A stretch of DNA of 64,000 nucleotides from Mesotoga infera. Lineage in GTDB: Bacteria; Thermotogota; Thermotogae; Petrotogales; Kosmotogaceae. The position numbers and the translations under genes were made by a program. Under the pieces are notes generated by a model that was given only the letters and a program-made list of their open reading frames with translations, did no database searches and was not told where the DNA came from. Shown piece after piece: positions 42,980 to 64,000 of this stretch. The stretch spans positions 1,116,001 through 1,180,000 of the forward strand of contig NZ_LS974202.1 of assembly GCF_900157305.1 (NCBI RefSeq). Direction: 5' to 3'. Numbering within the stretch: position 1 is the stretch's first letter; each line of letters opens with the position of its first letter.

Positions 42980-43262
42980 AGAAATCACCTGCAATTAACG
43001 GCAATATATAGTTATCATTGCCACTTATATATTATAGCATAGCGTCTTTCTTTCATACGCTTGCAGAAGTTATGCTTGGAGTCACAGACCCAAGAGGACC
43101 CGAGAAGTTGGAAGACTGGAAGGATCGCGCCAGCAATTAAGGCGGGCAGATTCCTCTGTATTAAACGCGCCGTGCTGAAAGTTTTGTCTCCGGGCATATA
43201 GGTGAGGTTTTGAGGGTACCGCACAAGAAAACGCGTTACAGGGCATTTTACGAGGTGTAGTT

Positions 43263-43856
43263 ATGGAGGAAGTCCAGCCGATACGAGACACTAAGAAGAT
43301 CGACGCGATGAAGTCAATAATGAAGGGTGAATCCAACTACCGGGACCTTCTTCTCTTCACTCTGGGTATTAACACCGGCCTGAGGATCTCTGATATTCTC
43401 GCTCTGAAGTGGAGCAGCTTCATAAACGGTGGAAGTAGACTTCTGAAGGCAGGGGATCAGCTGAATGTAATGGAGATCAAGACGAAGAAGGTGAAGACGT
43501 TTGTTATAAACAAGTCGGTCGCGGAAGCGTTGAAGCTGTATTACGATTCTCTCGATAGTGTATCTCCCGAGGATCCTGTATTTCTGTCACGAAAAACCGC
43601 TAAAGGCGAACTGAAACCCATAACACGCATCGCCGCCTGGCAGATGCTGAATAGATATGCGAATATGGTCGGACTGGATGAGGGGATCGGCACGCACACG
43701 CTCCGCAAGACCTTCGGCTATCACCTGTACAAAAAAGGCGTGGCTCTGGAGTACATTCAAAAGATGCTTAACCATTCCTCGCCGGCGATAACCCTGCGGT
43801 ATATTGGTATCACCCAGGAGCAGCTTAACGATATCTATGTGGAGCTGAACTTATAA
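43263..43856 (+). CDS. Minimal tyrosine recombinase (copy A)
   Basis: 197 residues, only the catalytic core. Arg in GINTGLRISDILAL (about 43), a beta-hairpin Lys region (EIKTKKVKTFVINK), HTLRKTFGYH with the His-x-x-Arg pair (about 146-149), MLNHSSPAITLRYIGIT with His and the nucleophile Tyr (about 183). The N-terminal SAM-like DNA-arm domain of XerC-type integrases is missing. ATG follows CGAGGTG. Such short recombinases occur in mobile islands. It is identical to the copy at 56597 and probably took part in, or moved with, the duplication. Confidence 0.88.
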   Translation: MEEVQPIRDTKKIDAMKSIMKGESNYRDLLLFTLGINTGLRISDILALKWSSFINGGSRLLKAGDQLNVMEIKTKKVKTFVINKSVAEALKLYYDSLDSVSPEDPVFLSRKTAKGELKPITRIAAWQMLNRYANMVGLDEGIGTHTLRKTFGYHLYKKGVALEYIQKMLNHSSPAITLRYIGITQEQLNDIYVELNL

Positions 43857-43894
43857 CAGCTGGCTACTCCTACGATGTCGGACCGGTATTATCC

Positions 43895-44337
43895 TTAAGG
43901 CCATAGAGCCTCCAATATCTGCGTCTTCTCGCGCTTGCGGGCTACTCCTTGCCCGGCGCTCGAAGCCACAGCATCTGTAACCTCAGACAGAATGTCGGAA
44001 ATGCTGCTATCGGGATTTCTGAGGTCAACGAAACGCACGTCAACCTTAACGTTGTCATTGGAGGCGTATCTGATATCGGTCCTGCTGATCCTGTCGGAAT
44101 AGGGATAAAGCAAGACAATCCTGTCGGCCCCGTACTTCTTGCCATATGCGTACATCTGGTACATATCTAATTGCGAAATACCACTGTTTCGCTCGGTATC
44201 TGAGAGGAGTTTCCATTTTGTATCCATAACGACTTTATGCTTACCGAATTCCAGCACAATATACGGGCGAAGAGCAAAGGCGCGCCTGGGTGTATCAAAG
44301 AGGCTATAAGTCATATCCTGAGTCCTGATGTTGATAC
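43895..44337 (-). pseudogene. McrC C-terminal fragment
   Basis: About 147 codons match the C-terminal third of the intact McrC at 57253 (RRAFALRPYIVLEFGKHKVV, DRIVLLYPYSDRISRTDIRY). The upstream two-thirds is absent and the fragment begins at the breakpoint GTTGATAC/TTGAAAA. Convergent with the recombinase gene. Confidence 0.9.
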
Positions 44338-44367
44338 TTGAAAATAGGAGTCTGACCCTGTTTTTTT
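44338..44367. repeat. 30-bp scar shared with 55066-55095
   Basis: TTGAAAATAGGAGTCTGACC then CTGTTTTTTT occurs at both places, each directly at the same McrC breakpoint. It looks like the end of a lost element. Confidence 0.8.
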
Positions 44368-44570: not shown

Positions 44571-45698
44571 CTAGCTCATAATGGCCTTCAATCTCAGAAG
44601 TTCAAAGGAACATCTGCCATACATTATCCGTTTAATCACCTTTATCTTGTTTATAACGCCTTCTATGATTCCGTTGCTGAACTCGGTTCTTATCGCATTC
44701 TTCACCGCTTCAATGTCTCTCTCTACCGACATGATGAAAGTGTTCAGCTCGCGGATGTTGTATCTCTTTACTTCTGAGAGCCAGTCCTCAAGTCTCGATT
44801 CATCTTTGCCCTTCAATATTTCTCTGAACCTGTTCACAGCCGAGTACAGGTTCTGTAAGTTACCGTCGGTTTCTATATACTCTTTCATCTTCTTCTGATC
44901 TGCCTCTTTGAATTTCGAGATGTCTTTGTTCAGAAGCGAGATCAACATTCCTCTTCTAAGCGTTGATTCAGGTGAAGTCTTTCTATGTCTCCTTCCCAGA
45001 CCTTCGTTATATTCAGCCAAAAAGGCGCTTAAGCTTCTGTAAGAACCTTTGTAAACGTCTTTTGCGATAGTTCTGAATATGTAAACTATCTTCTTTCTTT
45101 CGTGGTTGAGGGCAATTATGGTGTCCTTGTATGGATCGAGAATGCTTTTTCTTTCTCTTGAGGCGTTCACAAAGCGTCCCTGGTGCTTTATGTATTTGAT
45201 TGCCGTCTTAATGTCTATCTTGAGTTCTCTAGAAATGGCATTCGCTGAATAGCCGTTGAGGTGCATTTCTTTCACTGTCCTGACAAGCTCATTCTTTGCC
45301 TCTTCTCTATCTTGCTTTCTGATTGCAGCTTTGGTGAGCTTTTTCGCTTTTTGATCGGTTGGGGTGATGGATGCTTCCAGCTTTATCCTCACAGGTATTG
45401 TACGCTTTATATACTCCTTTGCCCCATCGACCAGGTTCTTTACCAGGTGAAAACGATCACTCACCTGCATCGCCTCGGGAAAAGCTTCTCTTATAGCTTT
45501 TGCGTATCCGATCGATCCGTCTCTTGAAACCACTTCTATCTCGGGATAGCTTTTCAGCCATTGGACAACTGAATCTGTATCTCTCGATGGAATCATGTCC
45601 ACAACCCTCGAAGTTTCATAGTCCACTATTAATGTGCCGTAGGTCTGCCCCTTCTTGATCGCGAAATCATCTATGCAGACTATCCTTGACTGAGTCAT
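44571..45698 (-). CDS. ISL3 transposase, catalytic part
   Basis: 375 residues beginning at an ATG inside the stop region of the upstream frame. DDE catalytic domain: VCIDDFAIKKGQTYGT (first Asp), VVSRDGSIGYAKAI (second Asp region), DRFHLVKNLVDGAKEY, and FSNGIIEGVINKIKVIKRIM YGR-type ending with the Glu. The family normally has a single frame of about 430-550 residues. Here -1 slippage at an A8 run (45711-45718) would join it to the preceding zinc-binding part. Confidence 0.85.
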   Translation of the reverse strand: MTQSRIVCIDDFAIKKGQTYGTLIVDYETSRVVDMIPSRDTDSVVQWLKSYPEIEVVSRDGSIGYAKAIREAFPEAMQVSDRFHLVKNLVDGAKEYIKRTIPVRIKLEASITPTDQKAKKLTKAAIRKQDREEAKNELVRTVKEMHLNGYSANAISRELKIDIKTAIKYIKHQGRFVNASRERKSILDPYKDTIIALNHERKKIVYIFRTIAKDVYKGSYRSLSAFLAEYNEGLGRRHRKTSPESTLRRGMLISLLNKDISKFKEADQKKMKEYIETDGNLQNLYSAVNRFREILKGKDESRLEDWLSEVKRYNIRELNTFIMSVERDIEAVKNAIRTEFSNGIIEGVINKIKVIKRIMYGRCSFELLRLKAIMS

Positions 45699-46144
45699 TA
45701 CTTGACTGCTGTTTTTTTTAACATCCTCAGTATCGTATCGTCCGATATCTCGACAAGCCCATTACTGACAACTCCCTCTGCTTTCAGAGCGCTCATGTTG
45801 GCTGCCAGTTCGATTATTCTTTCGTTCAGCCTTTTCGTTCTTCTTCCATAGTCCTCCACGAAAGAGTATCTCTCTGCGAATTGCGACTTAGCGCACTCTG
45901 GATTCTTGCAGAAGAACACCCTTCTCTGCAATACTATCCTCACCTCTTTGTCTTGAACCGGCAGATCGGCAATTGTCTTGATATATATCTTGTGTACACT
46001 CCTCGATTTCGCTCCACAATACGGACAGATTGCTTCTTCCCTCGCCATCTTCGTATGTAACTCTATTCTGTTCTCGTGAATCACTGTTTCGGTCAGTACT
46101 AAATCCCGGTCAAGTGTCTTCAGCATCTCTTCCAAGTTCCTCAT
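45698..46144 (-). CDS. ISL3 transposase, N-terminal zinc-finger part
   Basis: 148 residues (MRNLEEML start at 46144). CPYCGAKSRSVHKIY and FFCKNPECAKSQFAERYSFV are the two-cysteine-pair zinc domains of ISL3 transposases, followed by an HTH (VEISDDTILRMLKKT). It stops just after an A8 run; with a -1 shift there the product continues as NSSQV into the catalytic frame. Confidence 0.85.
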   Translation of the reverse strand: MRNLEEMLKTLDRDLVLTETVIHENRIELHTKMAREEAICPYCGAKSRSVHKIYIKTIADLPVQDKEVRIVLQRRVFFCKNPECAKSQFAERYSFVEDYGRRTKRLNERIIELAANMSALKAEGVVSNGLVEISDDTILRMLKKTAVK

Positions 46145-46401
46145 CCACCCTCTACAACTTATTTCGCTCCTTATCCTAATTTTACACCGTTTTCTCTTTT
46201 CCCTCATACATACTGAGGAAGAACCATTTCCCACTTGCCAAAAACAAACTCGTCTCCTAAATGGGTTCATGATGCTGGTTGGAATTATTTAGTATCATCG
46301 AACCTGCAATGAGATCATTTGGAGCACTTGGGAAAGGGATGTGAAGAATAATAACATCTATCGAGACCTTCTTTCACTATAGAGACACCCTATGTTTATA
46401 G

Positions 46402-46428
46402 GAAAAAGCGCGGCGTAAAGGCCGCGCT
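46402..46428 (-). terminator. Intrinsic terminator of the sigma/FtsZ-like cluster
   Basis: AGCGCGGC/GCCGCGCT 8-bp stem with a 6-base loop, followed on the - strand by TTTTTCC, immediately after the last gene. Confidence 0.9.
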
Positions 46429-46432
46429 CAAT

Positions 46433-47290
46433 TCAAAATTCGTACTGCATTTCTTTCCATCCACCTTCAGGTATTTGAACCTGTACCGGCAAAGGCTCTG
46501 GAATATCTTCCCATTTGTAATCAGTCTTTGCTGAGTTCATTTCAGAAATGATCTTATCAACTTCCTGCTGCTTCAAGAACGCTTCTTCGATCGACTTTGC
46601 AGTTGCCATTAGGCTCTCAAGCTTGGATTTACTTCCGGTATACATTTCTGCCTGATCCTTCAAAAATGATCGTTGCATCTTATTGTTTTGTAGTATTATT
46701 TTGAATTGTACAATCTTGTTTTCCCATTCCATGATATCAAATTTCAACTTGTCTATCGTCGCCCTGGAATTTTCGACCAATTGCTTCGTGCTTTCATAAT
46801 ACTGTCTTTTCAAGTCTACCGTCTGGGCTTTAAGAGAGGTTTCGGTGTTAATATGTGAAAGATTGATCTGGTGTTCTCGCAGACTGGCGTTTACACCTCC
46901 TATTTCTACTACCTTGTTAAGATCAGACTCTCCCGCATATGCACTCAGTTCTTCTTGAAGTCTGTTAGCTTTTCTTGCAGATAGATTGTAATCTTCCAAA
47001 GCCTTTTTAAAGTCTTCTTCGACTCCTTTTTCCTTTAGATTGGCCTCGGCGAGCTTTTCAATATATACGATTTGTTCGTTCTTTAACTCCACAACGAGTT
47101 GTTCGGCAGCTTTTATTGCTTTTTCATTAGCTTCCACCTTGTTTGCCATGTCATCTAGCGTCTTCTTGATTGCCAGATATTCCACACTCCCGCTAGGCCT
47201 ATTAAACCACCAAAGAGCTCCACCAATTCCAACTCCAGCAATGCAAACCACTATAATTACTAAAAGTGTTGCAATTCCTTTCTTACGCAT
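46433..47290 (-). CDS. Single-pass membrane protein with long coiled coil
   Basis: 285 residues. ATG at 47290 after GGGGAGGTG. One membrane helix (about 7-27), then a 220-residue heptad-rich helical region (about 38-260; KKTLDDMANKVEANEKAIKA, AKSIEEAFLKQQEVDKIIS) and a proline-rich tail. No family recognised. Last gene of the cluster; it is 137 bases after the FtsZ-like gene and ends at the terminator. The shape suggests a scaffold or adaptor outside the membrane. Confidence 0.7.
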   Translation of the reverse strand: MRKKGIATLLVIIVVCIAGVGIGGALWWFNRPSGSVEYLAIKKTLDDMANKVEANEKAIKAAEQLVVELKNEQIVYIEKLAEANLKEKGVEEDFKKALEDYNLSARKANRLQEELSAYAGESDLNKVVEIGGVNASLREHQINLSHINTETSLKAQTVDLKRQYYESTKQLVENSRATIDKLKFDIMEWENKIVQFKIILQNNKMQRSFLKDQAEMYTGSKSKLESLMATAKSIEEAFLKQQEVDKIISEMNSAKTDYKWEDIPEPLPVQVQIPEGGWKEMQYEF

Positions 47291-47427
47291 ATAACACACC
47301 TCCCCTTTTGGAGTACTTTGCCTGTTTTTTCTTCAACACCCTTCTGAACTATATTGGTGCTATGGCTGTGTTATTATTCCTGTTCAAAATTTTTCAACTA
47401 GAATTAAACTAAATCTTTATAAAAGCC

Positions 47428-48840
47428 TTAGTTGAACATATTTCTGGGAGATTCTTCCTGAGAAATTCTCAATATCTCTTCCCAGAATTGCCATTCGATG
47501 TTCTCCAGCATCTTGTCGATAGTGGAGAGTTTCTTAATTGAATCGGCAAAGCTTAACTGCATTTCGTAATTGATTAATCTAATTTCCCACAAGTTCAGAC
47601 TGTTAGACAAATTCTGCAAGTATTTCCCGCTGTAATACATGGTTTCATTGTAGGTATCAAGCTTTGATGAACTGATATCGTAGTTCTTGTAGATAATCGC
47701 TCTAAGGTTATCGAGTCTATTGAATAATTGCTTCCTGTAATTCTCAATGTTTCTGTTTTCCATTACCAAGAAGAAAGCAAGAGCTGCTAATGCAGACAAG
47801 CCAAGTCCAGTTGCCCAGTAAGCCGGTTTTCTCGAGAAGCGGGAGGTTTTTGCAACTCTTTCGGCTATGATAATATCATCAACTTTCGACAAACCTATGA
47901 TCAAAGTGGCGCTTATGATATCGTCCCCTAATTCCGGATCAATTCTTATCGCAATTGAATACCCAGCTAAAGCTTTTTTTATTTGCTTTTCAATTGTAGC
48001 AAAATTAAGACCTCTATTAGAATCTAGTTTCGACGTACGGAAAATTATTGCCACTGATTTTCTCGAGTTACTTCCCGGGAGCTTTTTTAGGATGTTTTTG
48101 ATCTTCTTAACTAGAGTCAAGGGGTTGAGTACATGCTCGACTCTTTCTATCATTGCATATAAGAAGTTGTCTGAGAGCATACAAAACTCGTTATCACTAA
48201 CGAATAGCATAGCTTTCGAACCGAGTTGGCTGAGAACATCCAATCCTAAACGACAGATTTCTTCAGGTGATCTCCTAATTGAAGGAAATCCCACGGGGAC
48301 TAGCAGTTTTTCACTGACTTCTCCGACTGCAATTATGAATCTCTTAAGCTCCTCAGTACACATAAGGCCTGTGCGTGATGAGAATACCAAGGTGAGAACT
48401 TTTGTACCATTGCTTTTGGCAATTGCGATTCTCTCTATGTAATCACCGCTGACAGCCCCATAAGAAGCATCTACAAGCAGTAGAAGATACTCTGTGTTTT
48501 CAAGAGCATTACCGAAGAGAATCTCTCCTTCCAGTACAAAGCAGGTTCGTCTGTCCATATATGAAACACACCTGGCACACTCGACCCCCGATAACCCTAT
48601 CCCACTTATCACGATCCTTTTGTCGGCTTTTTTGAGATTTTTCAACGTATCAATAGACCAGTTGTTCAGAACCTGGATTCTCTTTTTTGATTCCTCGTAG
48701 ATTTTCCTACAAGATTTACATCCCTTTATATGTAACTCCATCACAACCTTCTCCATAGGATCCAGCTCTCCGGAAACCATCTTTAACACTGTTTCTTGAT
48801 CTACATGAGGGGTAATTATCTTGTCAGTTTTCGAACTCAT
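47428..48840 (-). CDS. Anti-sigma-type zinc finger fused to an FtsZ/tubulin-like domain and a membrane anchor
   Basis: 470 residues, ATG at 48840 after GGAGTGA. Residues about 15-55 form a zf-HC2 anti-sigma motif (VSGELDPMEKVVMELHIKGC then KSCRKIYEE; His-x3-Cys-x2-Cys). Residues about 75-330 line up by pattern with FtsZ: IVISGIGLSGVECARCV (FtsZ VIGVGGAGGNAVNRM), ENTEYLLLLVDASYGAVSGD (FtsZ ADMVFVTAGMGGGTGTG, glycines lost), ELKRFIIAVGEVSEKLLVPV (FtsZ ELRENVDTLIVIP) and an FtsZ-like C-terminal subdomain. A membrane helix (about 338-360) precedes an outer domain of about 110 residues. With the GGGTGTG loop gone, GTP binding is doubtful. The partner is likely the sigma-like gene upstream. Confidence 0.6.
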   Translation of the reverse strand: MSSKTDKIITPHVDQETVLKMVSGELDPMEKVVMELHIKGCKSCRKIYEESKKRIQVLNNWSIDTLKNLKKADKRIVISGIGLSGVECARCVSYMDRRTCFVLEGEILFGNALENTEYLLLLVDASYGAVSGDYIERIAIAKSNGTKVLTLVFSSRTGLMCTEELKRFIIAVGEVSEKLLVPVGFPSIRRSPEEICRLGLDVLSQLGSKAMLFVSDNEFCMLSDNFLYAMIERVEHVLNPLTLVKKIKNILKKLPGSNSRKSVAIIFRTSKLDSNRGLNFATIEKQIKKALAGYSIAIRIDPELGDDIISATLIIGLSKVDDIIIAERVAKTSRFSRKPAYWATGLGLSALAALAFFLVMENRNIENYRKQLFNRLDNLRAIIYKNYDISSSKLDTYNETMYYSGKYLQNLSNSLNLWEIRLINYEMQLSFADSIKKLSTIDKMLENIEWQFWEEILRISQEESPRNMFN

Positions 48841-48875
48841 TTCTATCACTCCTTCCACTCAATTTCTGATCAAAA

Positions 48876-50420
48876 TCACTTCAACATGTGAATGCTTAAG
48901 AACTTTACCCATTTTCTGACTATCTCAATTGAATCTTGGCCGTCTTTGAAATATTCCTGCAAAGGGGTCTGCAAACAAGGTATTCGTAGGTAGCCTCTTT
49001 CTTTCAAGTGTTTTTTATAGAATCTATCTCTTCCAACAAAAAAGAAATTATCTTTTTGTGCTATTCTTTTGAACTCGGCGAACAGCGATTCATTAAGAGT
49101 AACCTGTTCAGTGATATCAAATTGCGATATTACTGATAAGTACTCCTTCTCTGCAAGATTTGTGAGTTCCTCTATTTTCATTTTCGAATACTCATTAATA
49201 AAAGTCGATTCCTCAATTTGAAGTACTTTTATAAAGAAGTAAGCTATCTTCTGCCAAGGGGTGCACTCATCAAACTTGATGAGTCTGTAAAGGAAGGTGT
49301 TGAAATCCTGCAAAGCCACAATTCTTGCTAACATTTCTTCTTTAGGATCTACTGCATCTGGATTTTTAGTGATTTCTATGAAGGTTGTCTCGTTTTCTTT
49401 ATCGGATGAAATTGAACTGTCCAGTGATAATACCAGGTTATCCTGTGAGTATGAAGATGGCCAAATTTCATCAATACGTTTCCTTCCCTGTTCAAAATCA
49501 TTCAGCATTCTCATCAGAAAGTTTTTTAGCTCTTCGAAAGTCCCACTTATTGATGAAATCATAGGAACAAAAAGCAAGCTTAGCCAAGAGTCTACAAAAT
49601 CCTCGATATTTATCCCTGCAGTCCCATGGCTACTATTCAGAAAATCGCAGATCTTTCTGATTTCCCTTCTCTTGAGCGATTTATACCTCTGACATTCTAA
49701 GCTACAATCAAAAATGCCATGTGATTGCTTGAGAATTTCGTAACTCCTTTCGTTCCTAGTACTCAAAAGCCTTTTCATTATTGTTTGAATCCATGTTGAC
49801 AAAGCTGCCTTTTGAGGATTGTATGTATGCAAGGATCTTTCCACTTCTTTCAGTAAAAGGGATAACAATTCGAATAGTTCGCCAGCGCTCGGCCAATAGG
49901 GGGCGAAGAAATTTTTTAATGGAAATTTTATACCGTTCACTACCTCTAACCGCAAAGGCTCGAGAAATTTATTCTTTTGGTCGTTCTTGGTACCAGCAGA
50001 AGAGCCAACGGTTTTTTCGTCCAGTTCTTTTCTGTACAATTTGTAAATGATATCTTTATCAAATAACTCCGTAAAATTCTGACTGTACATTACTTTATCC
50101 TTGAGCTCTTTAAGTATTAGAACCACGGAGTAGATAGCTGCAAGGTTCTTAATAAGCAAGATTTGTCTTTCAAGTGCCTTATCGCTGTTTGTAGCCTTTT
50201 TTATATCGTTGGCCGGCCTGCAGTGGTCTTTCTTATTAATATGCCTAGCACATAGAACTATCAGAAGATCGTTCTCAAGCTTCATATGCTCTTGCGGGGT
50301 GAAAGAATTCAACATAATTTTCTTTGCAAGTATTATAGATCTGGAGATATGAAATTTTGCAGCCTTTCCATACTCTTCAAACCATTCATGAAATCCAATT
50401 CTTTCGTACTCACATTTCAT
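48876..50420 (-). CDS. Large sigma-factor-like protein
   Basis: 514 residues, ATG at 50420 after GGAGGAAGAGTGAA. Residues about 190-225 (VERSLHTYNPQKAALSTWIQ then TIMKRLLSTRNERS) match the sigma-70/ECF region 2 pattern (Y-dp-x-a-x-f-x-tW-l-x-i-x-r). A segment about 330-360 (SLDSSISSDKEN, NPDAVDPKEEML) is like the sigma linker between regions 2 and 4. The C-terminal 100 residues (RIAQKDNFFFVGRDRFYKKH) could be a diverged DNA-binding domain. The N-terminal 180 residues are unique. Right next to an anti-sigma-type gene. It is much longer than a normal ECF sigma, so it may be a regulator derived from one. Confidence 0.5.
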   Translation of the reverse strand: MKCEYERIGFHEWFEEYGKAAKFHISRSIILAKKIMLNSFTPQEHMKLENDLLIVLCARHINKKDHCRPANDIKKATNSDKALERQILLIKNLAAIYSVVLILKELKDKVMYSQNFTELFDKDIIYKLYRKELDEKTVGSSAGTKNDQKNKFLEPLRLEVVNGIKFPLKNFFAPYWPSAGELFELLSLLLKEVERSLHTYNPQKAALSTWIQTIMKRLLSTRNERSYEILKQSHGIFDCSLECQRYKSLKRREIRKICDFLNSSHGTAGINIEDFVDSWLSLLFVPMISSISGTFEELKNFLMRMLNDFEQGRKRIDEIWPSSYSQDNLVLSLDSSISSDKENETTFIEITKNPDAVDPKEEMLARIVALQDFNTFLYRLIKFDECTPWQKIAYFFIKVLQIEESTFINEYSKMKIEELTNLAEKEYLSVISQFDITEQVTLNESLFAEFKRIAQKDNFFFVGRDRFYKKHLKERGYLRIPCLQTPLQEYFKDGQDSIEIVRKWVKFLSIHMLK

Positions 50421-50645
50421 TTCACTCTTCCTCCGTGGCCGGATTTTTCTTCTGACCCTTCTAATTGCAATCAAAAGACTATCCTTGCTATTGGACATCA
50501 GCAAAGTAAAAAGAGAGCTCCCACAACTCATTATTGGTGTACTAGTTTAGAGAGAAAACTCTCTTTATCTATATGTAATAAATAAACAATATAAAATTGC
50601 ATTTTCGACCTTTATCTTTTCTTTAAATGCTTTTTACCCATAAAT

Positions 50646-51380
50646 CTATCTGACCGACATTCTAGAAAAGTACCCCTCGAACTGGTTCATAAAAAAGATT
50701 CTCATTTCAGAATAACTAATATTTCTCTTCAAGTAGCTTTCGTAAAGAACAAGTCTAGTCTGAAATTCTTGATTCATGTCATCAGCCTTTTTTCGTGAGG
50801 CCACTTCATCAATGACCTCTCTTGAGTATTCTTTTGTGAACAGATCTCTCACAGTAAAATAAGATAGTATAATTGATAGTATCCCTGTCCCATAGTACAG
50901 CGATTGGTCATATGAATATAAATAGTAAGTAATTACACCACTGGCTAAAGCAGCAGCTCCAAGAAAAAGTGTTCCAAATATTGCTCCATAATCCGTTGAA
51001 CGTTCGAAAATAGTAGTCTCCTGTGCAGTATATTTTCTGAAATAGATATTTGAAGGATATGGTAAAGGAAATATCGAAAGACTTATTCCATTCTCATAAA
51101 CCGAGCCATCAAACAATCTGTGTTCAATGAATCGCGAATCTTTGATAGTAACAGAAACTCTGATCGCTCCATGTTGGTCAAGAGGAACATAATACAAAGT
51201 CTGCCTTCCTGAATCAAGTAGAAGATAGTCTTTTCTGAATGGACTTTCAATTAGCAAATTAAGTCCTTCAACATCCAATTTAAACTCACTGGCAACGGAC
51301 AGCCTTACTGGCGCTATAGAAGAGAATGCAATTGTGCAAAAGAGCATTTGAATTGTTATAATAGCTGTGAGTATTTTCAC
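50646..51380 (-). CDS. Exported/membrane protein of unknown function
   Basis: 244 residues from a GTG at 51380 with GGGGGTG upstream. Signal peptide (1-19), a beta-rich outer part (about 25-125; LDVEGLNLLIESPFRKDYLL, like a PEGA-type carrier of short strands), two membrane helices (about 132-150 and 157-175), then a charged cytoplasmic-type helix. No family certain. 25 bases after the beta-propeller gene. Confidence 0.55.
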   Translation of the reverse strand: MKILTAIITIQMLFCTIAFSSIAPVRLSVASEFKLDVEGLNLLIESPFRKDYLLLDSGRQTLYYVPLDQHGAIRVSVTIKDSRFIEHRLFDGSVYENGISLSIFPLPYPSNIYFRKYTAQETTIFERSTDYGAIFGTLFLGAAALASGVITYYLYSYDQSLYYGTGILSIILSYFTVRDLFTKEYSREVIDEVASRKKADDMNQEFQTRLVLYESYLKRNISYSEMRIFFMNQFEGYFSRMSVR

Positions 51381-61432: not shown

Positions 61433-62359
61433 TTAGTTGTCATACTTTTTCGCAATGTTGCGAAGCTTCAATGCCATATCGCAGAGCCAATCGAATTGTT
61501 TGGGCCAAGCGCTTTCGCCTTTCTTTATATCACCATCTCGCAGAACAAGGATTCGACACGCCTTATTTGCTGTACGCCATTCAATCGAACTTCCAAGTTC
61601 TTCTTCAATGGCATCCTTATTCGCTCTGAATTTCTCAAATCGTTCTTTATCATCATCGATATAAATCTCTACTCCCAGTCGCTTCTTCTGCGTATTGGCG
61701 GTAAGAGCGATGTGATAAGCAGAGTTTCCCACACTCAAGTCGTACCAGTGTTGAGGACTTGCCTTCCGTTTTGAGAAGGCTCTTGAGAATTCTGGTCTAG
61801 CAAAAGCATAATCACAAAACGCCTGCCAGAAGTCCAGCTGAAGTTTCTTGGTATCGGACAACCCTTCAGATGCCTTCACAATCTTAGACCAATCATTGGG
61901 ACGTTCAATTACATTGAATTTCGGGGCTGGCAAAGAATCGTTTATTCTCCAAAGCTCAATTTCTATTAAGAAGAATCCAATATTCTCGTCTGTGTGTTGG
62001 TTAATCCACTCAACTGCTTGTTTGTGCTCATCTCTTGCTCTTTTGACAATCCACACAATCACTTCGGCTCCCTTACCTGAAGCGTAGGTGATTATCTTAC
62101 CCAAGTGGTCATGGTTTGTATCTTCCAGCTGGTTTTCGATAATGATTTTCCGACCTGTGCCGTCTTCAGTTCCATAGAGATCGACATTGAACCCTCCAAC
62201 AGGAGATTCTAGTTCTTCGAAAACAATATCAATACCGATTGCTTCACTAAGTAGGACCAGATTCTCTTCTTGAGCTAACCATTTGGAAAAGTCATGCGTC
62301 TCATGTTGCCAGATTGTTCGTAAATCATCTACGCGTTCAATTCTACCCAGCGCTGGCAT
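61433..62359 (-). CDS. DUF4268 PD-(D/E)XK-type protein
   Basis: 308 residues, ATG at 62359 after AAGGAGGT. N-terminal nuclease-like fold: FNVDLYGTEDGTGRKIIIEN gives Asp and Glu-Asn-Gln (ENQLEDTNHDHLGK), followed by YASGKGAEVIVWI. C-terminal DUF4268 (about 165-300; LQLDFWQAFCDYA, WYDLSVGNSAYHIALTANT). These proteins are common beside restriction systems. Possibly an accessory nuclease of this island. Confidence 0.8.
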   Translation of the reverse strand: MPALGRIERVDDLRTIWQHETHDFSKWLAQEENLVLLSEAIGIDIVFEELESPVGGFNVDLYGTEDGTGRKIIIENQLEDTNHDHLGKIITYASGKGAEVIVWIVKRARDEHKQAVEWINQHTDENIGFFLIEIELWRINDSLPAPKFNVIERPNDWSKIVKASEGLSDTKKLQLDFWQAFCDYAFARPEFSRAFSKRKASPQHWYDLSVGNSAYHIALTANTQKKRLGVEIYIDDDKERFEKFRANKDAIEEELGSSIEWRTANKACRILVLRDGDIKKGESAWPKQFDWLCDMALKLRNIAKKYDN

Positions 62360-62599
62360 GCAGTTACCTCCTTGTTTCGCAAAGAACTCTCTGAACCCTT
62401 CTGTGGACAATCCGCTTAGCAAGAAAAGCAAAAGTAGAAATGCTAGAACAAAATCGCCTCAATACTCTTTAGCGATAAGGCTTTCTTCACAGTATTATTG
62501 TTTTCACTTAGGTCCTTTCGGTGCATTAACTACTCGTCATTAATTCTCGTTTCATTCCTCTTTGATAATTCGGATGTTCTTTAGCCCCAGTTGCAGCCC

Positions 62600-64000
62600 T
62601 CAATCCTCCAGCCTGGCGCGCATAAAGGCATCTTCCGGGCCGGCGATGGGTATCGGGATGATTTTCGAGATCGTGTCCATCGAGACGCTAGACAGGTTTC
62701 CCATCTGCTCCAGAGGTATGGTGACTGCCCTTGCACCGTTCTCGGCGAGCATAGTGACCCTGTCGGCGAAGGACAGTGTGGTCTTAAGGCTTCCGGTTAT
62801 AGTCATATCCCCTATGATCCCCAGCCCCTTCTTCAGCGTGTTTCTGTGTATGGCCGAGAGTATGGAGACGAATATGGCGACGGTTATGTCATCGCCCACT
62901 TCACTGCCTATCATAGGGGTTAACTGTACTGCTATGTCATAGTCTTTCAAAGCCGAGTTGGATGGCAGGTACTTGCGCTGGTTGGAGGCTATGCAGGAGA
63001 CCGTTGTCTTCAGCGCCTCTTTGGCAGGCGTCCCGCCACCGCTTATGTTCTGCTTCCCCGAGCCCGGTACTACGATACTTTCGACTTTCAGCAGCGTGGT
63101 CTTTCCACCGGCTATCGAGACGGTATAAACAACCCCCGGAGGAAGAGGATCCTGAGAGATGAGAGCTTTGCTGCCGCCTTCGTTTACGGACACGTAGGTC
63201 TCTTTCTTGCTCTCTTTGTCTATATACGAGAAGTTGGTGTCCCAGAACTCGAGGCCTCCCAGTTTCTTCAGCTGTTCTTTTACACGTCTCCTGCATTCTA
63301 TGGCGAAGGAAAGAACACTCTCTATCCCCTCTTTCGTGTACTCGCCGTCGGGATAGAGGAGTTTGAGAAGGCCCGAGCAGGTCTTGCGTACCGCCTTCTC
63401 GTCCCTCCTGTTCAGCTGGCTCCCCAGATTGAAGTGTCTGTCCGGTACGTTTACCGCAGAGGTGCCCCTTAAGGATCTCATAACTTCCGAGAGGTAGTCT
63501 ATGGCAAATCCGAAGTGGTCGGTGAAGAGGTCCGCTCTCAGTTTCTCCACTTCCCAGCCTGGGAGGTAGGCGTGTATCCTGTCGAGTAAGGCGGTATCTT
63601 GCATCTCCACGGGGAATGGCTCAAAGAGGTGCGACATCTTCAGTAGCGTCTGCACATCGTCGTTTATATTCCCGTTGAAGACTATCCCGGCCTCGGCCAC
63701 TACCTCCACCTTTCTGGCGAACGAGCCTGCCTCCATAAAGTCTTTGAGCATCTGCAGCGCCTGTTTGTCCTTGAACTGTATGCCGGCGACTTCATCAAAA
63801 GCTATAAGGTCCCACTCTCCCACGAGCCCTACCTTGCGTGTGGCTATGTTGTAGAAGAGCTGTGCGACGGTCGTATTGCCTCCGGATAGCAAGAACGAGT
63901 ACGGCGAGATTTCACGGTAGATGTACGATTTACCCGTAGCCCTGGGTCCAAGCTCCACGAGGTTGTAGTTCTTCTCCACCAGAGGGACGAGTCTGAGGAG
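62600..64000 (-). CDS. brxL: BrxL, Lon-like ATPase of a BREX system (partial at window edge)
   Basis: 466 codons to the window edge; the full protein is about 680, so the N-terminal third lies outside. Walker A GPRATGKS, Walker B LIAFDEVAG, AAA+ sensor INDDVQTLLK region, then the C-terminal Lon-protease-like domain (LTPMIGSEVGDDITVAIFVS, GDMTITGSLKTT) and end IAGPEDAFMRARLED. brxL is usually the last gene of type I BREX loci; since it reads leftwards, the other brx/pgl genes should be just to the right. DNA-modification-based phage defence. Confidence 0.9.
   Translation of the reverse strand, partial: LLRLVPLVEKNYNLVELGPRATGKSYIYREISPYSFLLSGGNTTVAQLFYNIATRKVGLVGEWDLIAFDEVAGIQFKDKQALQMLKDFMEAGSFARKVEVVAEAGIVFNGNINDDVQTLLKMSHLFEPFPVEMQDTALLDRIHAYLPGWEVEKLRADLFTDHFGFAIDYLSEVMRSLRGTSAVNVPDRHFNLGSQLNRRDEKAVRKTCSGLLKLLYPDGEYTKEGIESVLSFAIECRRRVKEQLKKLGGLEFWDTNFSYIDKESKKETYVSVNEGGSKALISQDPLPPGVVYTVSIAGGKTTLLKVESIVVPGSGKQNISGGGTPAKEALKTTVSCIASNQRKYLPSNSALKDYDIAVQLTPMIGSEVGDDITVAIFVSILSAIHRNTLKKGLGIIGDMTITGSLKTTLSFADRVTMLAENGARAVTIPLEQMGNLSSVSMDTISKIIPIPIAGPEDAFMRARLED

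Follow-up and report, generated by a model that had tools for sequence, protein, structure and literature searches.

Does the long open reading frame that lies directly upstream of an anti-sigma-type gene in Mesotoga infera encode a sigma factor? This ORF (48876-50420, minus strand, stop codon included; 514 aa) is located in a 64,000-nucleotide stretch of DNA, the window analysed here, which is part of a 2.97-Mb single-contig genome. An earlier in-frame ATG at 50531 would give a product of 551 aa; since a GGAGG is located 9 nt 5′ of the ATG at 50420, the latter is the better start, in line with the choice made in the initial annotation. The downstream gene, which encodes a zf-HC2 protein, starts at ATG 48840 with an SD-like GGAGTG in front, and the GTG at 48858 retained by the ORF finder overlaps the ribosome-binding site of that gene. 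The gap between the two genes is exactly 35 bases (48841-48875), as initially stated. The 514-residue chain had been described as otherwise unknown sequence. Searches for full-length relatives covered plasmids, phages, viral contigs, genome contigs, a sample of 390 genomes from around the host and further sets of 7, 398, 195 and 314 genomes, each from another phylum; none was found. Matches to a phosphoglucomutase (L002), to IstB-type ATPases (L092-L094) and to a response regulator (L107) were read and discarded as chance. At the Pfam level, two sigma factors can be recognised in the host, one RpoD-sized and one ECF-sized (197 codons).

The resemblance to sigma factors is carried by residues 175-219 (YWPSAGELFELLSLLLKEVERSLHTYNPQKAALSTWIQTIMKRLL; 49764-49898, minus strand), a segment that resembles regions 2.2-2.4. 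When a 95-aa segment of the protein was scanned, NCBIfam returned three families with E values of 0.0032, 0.0082 and 0.072, all three being RNA polymerase sigma factors, and Pfam ranked Sigma70_r2 first (E 0.01; 16 bits, where the cut-off is 24). With the whole protein, Pfam gave no sigma match and NCBIfam gave one weak match, again to a sigma factor model (E 0.0027, residues 184-218, or 221-255 in the 551-residue form). A tblastn search of plasmids with the 95-aa segment produced no match. In 398 genomes of another phylum, the top two matches of the protein are complete ECF sigma factors, whose sequences HTYNPAKAKLSTWLYTI and HSYNSQKASLATWIYTI align with HTYNPQKAALSTWIQTI; their E values, 6.4e-4 and 1.0e-3, were each computed for one genome and neither is significant over 398 genomes. 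Because sigma factors make up a small share of genes, it is nevertheless unlikely that both top matches are sigma factors, aligned where the resemblance had been predicted, by chance alone. We then compared the protein with its own shuffled versions. On a region 2 profile of 27 sigma factors, from which the two ECF sigmas picked for similarity had been left out, it ranked 2nd of 5001 (itself and 5000 shuffles), with 8.5 bits against 8.6 for one shuffle, and hhalign placed 44 columns of the region 2 profile on residues 175-219 with a score of 27.7, the best of 300 shuffles reaching 23.8. Including the two ECF matches raised the protein to 1st of 5001, a partly circular result, and a first profile of low diversity, built from Thermotogota only, gave a weak signal (37th of 2001). 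All single region 2 scores are below the curated cut-offs. Judged from the sequence, the region 2 resemblance is above chance, and the initial claim of a region 2 match is upheld by NCBIfam, Pfam, the search of 398 genomes and the independent profile, at sub-threshold scores.

The sigma features beyond this segment are degraded or missing. In an ungapped alignment, the clamp-contact motif of region 2.2, DLxQE, reads ELLSL in the 514-aa protein. The acidic residue that follows the Gln is E or D in 29/29 reference sigmas and is replaced here by Leu; Ser in place of the Gln is also present in a genuine ECF sigma factor (L090). Regions 2.1 and 2.2 of sigma bind the beta-prime clamp helices (PMC7406223), and the degraded region 2.2 therefore puts binding of RNA polymerase by the 514-aa protein in doubt. 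Against a region 4 profile built with the same set of sigma factors the protein was at chance level, and the best score of a pairwise comparison with region 4 was reached by 30 of 500 shuffles. The profile searches thus recovered one of the two sigma regions, region 2, and left region 4 at chance. Family scans (NCBIfam, Pfam) gave no DNA-binding family match for the C-terminal part; with neither these scans nor the region 4 profile finding one, the "possible DNA-binding end" of the initial annotation is not retained. The linker-like part proposed there is a resemblance by eye only: the polar stretch at residues 320-358 (VLSLDSSISSDKENE...; 49347-49463, minus strand) looks linker-like, matches no family and is coil in an AlphaFold model of very low confidence. 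AlphaFold run without an alignment reached a mean pLDDT of 33.5, too poor to use, and 40.4 for a second model, with which Foldseek found no match at E 0.001; we therefore make no fold claim. The description "sigma-like" is justified; since no search supports a region 4 and the region 2.2 contact motif is degraded, the label "sigma factor" would go beyond the evidence.

The downstream gene provides the strongest sign that a sigma-type protein is to be expected at this place. It encodes a 470-aa protein (47428-48840, minus strand; Pfam, hydropathy) with one predicted transmembrane helix (342-360), a zf-HC2 domain that narrowly misses the Pfam cut-off (20.4 bits against 22.2; E 5.6e-4) and an HX3CX2C zinc motif (H37, C41, C44; 48709-48732, minus strand). 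Most class I anti-sigmas have a transmembrane helix, and about half of them have the Hx3Cx2C motif, as defined in the same work (PMC7406223). In the same 398 genomes, zf-HC2 proteins account for 11 of the best 12 loci listed for this protein, and all 11 are encoded directly downstream of an ECF sigma gene on the same strand, so that a sigma-type partner is expected upstream, precisely where the 514-aa protein sits; the order, sigma-type gene then zf-HC2 gene, is the same in M. infera and in the 11 checked relatives. The name "anti-sigma-type" given initially to this neighbour is supported by its domain, its motif and its best genome matches, themselves anti-sigma-type proteins, all from unbiased searches, and the anti-sigma-type identity of the 470-aa protein is, as far as sequence tells, firmer than the sigma identity of its partner. 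The sigma resemblance of the orphan 514-aa protein is itself real but modest, and is backed by this neighbour gene. The domains of class I anti-sigmas clasp regions 2 and 4 alike (PMC7406223); a partner lacking region 4 would hence call for another mode of binding, unless it has a region 4 that has diverged beyond recognition. Beyond the zf-HC2 domain, no relatives of the 470-aa protein were found in the same kinds of collections. Its middle region (about residues 67-335; 47835-48640, minus strand), to which no family is assigned, recalls FtsZ by eye, with GIGLSG near its start and IDPELGDDI..TLIIG near its end; an FtsZ profile scored it at chance and the reading as a member of the FtsZ/tubulin superfamily was dropped.

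The two genes belong to a cassette of six genes, all on the minus strand, which includes a WD40 protein and further membrane proteins. A 184-aa ORF (54141-54695) has one N-terminal hydrophobic segment according to hydropathy. The 920-aa WD40 repeat protein (51406-54168; Pfam, hydropathy) has a hydrophobic segment at its N terminus and, at 734-752, a transmembrane region, followed by a coiled-coil-like end. By hydropathy, the 244-aa protein encoded at 50646-51380 is a membrane protein with two hydrophobic segments, and a 288-aa protein (46433-47299; hydropathy, Pfam) combines an N-terminal transmembrane helix with a long coiled-coil-like region. Directly after this last gene lies an intrinsic-terminator-like hairpin (46406-46429, minus strand; 9 pairs, 7 of them G-C, and a T tail); such hairpins are present in the region at a number expected by chance, and this one is the strongest and stands at a gene end. 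Matches to sigma-70-type promoters within the cassette are also at chance number.

The cassette has a G+C content of 37.6%, versus 45.3% for the window, and a repeat search revealed a 157-nt direct repeat, a piece of an mcrC-like gene, on either side of it (left copy, 44211-44367; right copy, 54939-55095; 97% identical). A duplicate of about 1.2 kb, containing a small integrase-like gene and the 3′ part of the mcrC-like gene, is found at 43151-44367 and 56488-57704, 13.3 kb apart, with the 157-nt piece at 54939-55095 as a third copy in between; around the cassette the mcrC-like gene is present once whole and twice as fragments. A transposase-like pair (44571-46270; ORFs of 190 and 375 aa) separates the left repeat from the cassette. 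Adjoining the right repeat, at 54843-54899 on the minus strand, a sequence resembles a remnant of the brxL C terminus (VASIAWPEDAFMKSRLED versus IPIAGPEDAFMRARLED, with which the brxL gene ends at 62600). The surroundings comprise brxL, an McrB-like gene and a PDC-S11 gene, as in a BREX/McrBC-type island; the PDC-S11 candidate defence protein (E 1.6e-120) and brxL, which is cut by the window end (E 1.7e-174), occupy 61433-63979. Scanning genome contigs for BrxL gave three relatives, all Thermotogota-type, and none from other phyla. Searches across the rest of the genus and phylum turned up no relatives. Taken with the low G+C, the flanking repeats and the transposase-like pair, this indicates that the cassette is probably a horizontal acquisition; its location in a defence island does not by itself imply a function in defence.

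How might such a pair work? The region 2-like sequence, the zf-HC2 domain with its zinc motif, the sigma-then-anti-sigma gene order and the predicted membrane segments lead us to propose, with confidence evenly balanced, that the 514-aa protein is a divergent sigma-70-type regulator, held at the membrane by the zf-HC2 protein and freed by an envelope signal. We infer the following steps. A sigma-2-like core would be embedded in a large chain of otherwise unknown sequence, and the zf-HC2 (class I anti-sigma) domain of its partner, predicted to cross the membrane once, would keep this regulator inactive at the membrane. The WD40 protein, for which an extracytoplasmic location is predicted, and the other membrane proteins of the cassette would sense an envelope signal or relay it to the anti-sigma protein, which would then release the regulator. 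Once freed, the regulator would bind RNA polymerase and turn on target genes, DNA binding being presumably ensured by an unrecognised C-terminal part. Seen at this general level, the 514-aa protein is probably a switchable transcription regulator carried by an acquired cassette in a region of defence genes. A bolder version, that we consider quite improbable, is that of a mobile envelope-sensing switch in a defence island. In it, an extracytoplasmic WD40 protein would signal by way of the transmembrane zf-HC2 protein, and the receiver would be a large sigma-2-only regulator of a new class, working either with no region 4 or as a sigma mimic.

Because region 2.2 is degraded and region 4 was not found, a sigma mimic or adaptor is the main rival to this proposal. 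The sigma-2-like surface would then only bind the anti-sigma, as in PhyR, or another sigma part, as in RsoA-SigO, and relay a signal without starting transcription. The host already has one ordinary ECF sigma factor, and PhyR and SigO-RsoA are established precedents (PMC8103513). Against a mimic, the best preserved part is region 2.3-2.4, involved in promoter opening, rather than the face formed by 2.1-2.2, to which anti-sigmas attach (PMC7406223); moreover, neither a response-regulator domain nor a split region 4 partner was recognised in the cassette. On balance we regard this reading as rather doubtful. A fortuitous or convergent match of a short helix in an unrelated protein, the zf-HC2 neighbour serving another membrane complex of the cassette, would account for the shortness of the match (25-45 residues) and its sub-threshold scores, for the absence of a sigma match in the whole-protein Pfam scan, for the poor rank with the low-diversity profile and for the lack of region 4. 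We consider this unlikely: the same family comes up at the same place in both libraries, in the search of genomes and with the independent profile, and the adjacent zf-HC2 gene independently points to ECF anti-sigmas.

A further reading concerns the purpose of the cassette, which could be an anti-phage or other defence system whose sigma-like protein induces the defence genes of the island, as proposed for CASP-sigma in type III-E CRISPR. The neighbouring brxL, McrB-like and PDC-S11 genes, together with the lower G+C and repeat-flanked ends of the cassette, are consistent with it, and a sigma and its inhibitor do occur in a known defence locus (PMC10028731). However, a PADLOC scan of five cassette proteins returned only weak coiled-coil and WD40-type matches and no known defence protein, and islands also gather unrelated mobile genes, so that we think a defence role improbable. 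If the pair works as proposed, as an envelope-responsive regulator and its membrane-bound inhibitor, sigma/anti-sigma signalling would not be limited to compact ECF proteins of two domains. It would also involve large chains that show no recognisable sigma region other than region 2 and that escape current profile cut-offs. The lineage, with its two recognisable sigma factors, would have a third sigma-like regulator, and envelope sensing might be tied to genes of the defence island.

Among known systems, CASP-sigma/Csx30 of type III-E CRISPR likewise associates a sigma-type protein with an inhibitor in a defence locus, where CASP-sigma is proposed to induce defence genes (PMC10028731); the defence link of the M. 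infera locus is its location only, CASP-sigma is a clear ECF, and no CRISPR or caspase-like gene was recognised here. PhyR of alphaproteobacteria has a sigma-like domain with degraded polymerase contacts and binds an anti-sigma, and RsoA, which binds SigO, is a chain that has a region 2 but no region 4 (PMC8103513). By description only, the 514-aa protein is like both; unlike PhyR it has no response-regulator domain, and in contrast to SigO-RsoA no region 4 partner was recognised in the cassette. The group IV (ECF) sigma factors paired with membrane zinc class I anti-sigmas, such as SigW/RsiW, differ by their size (about 190-210 aa for the ECFs found, versus 514 aa); in the M. infera protein, region 2 lies mid-chain, region 4 is not recognisable and the acidic residue of region 2.2 is lost, and its anti-sigma carries about 270 aa of additional sequence in the middle. 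With these systems the M. infera pair nonetheless shares a region 2.2-2.4-like segment and, encoded directly downstream, a zf-HC2 anti-sigma that combines the Hx3Cx2C motif with a transmembrane helix.
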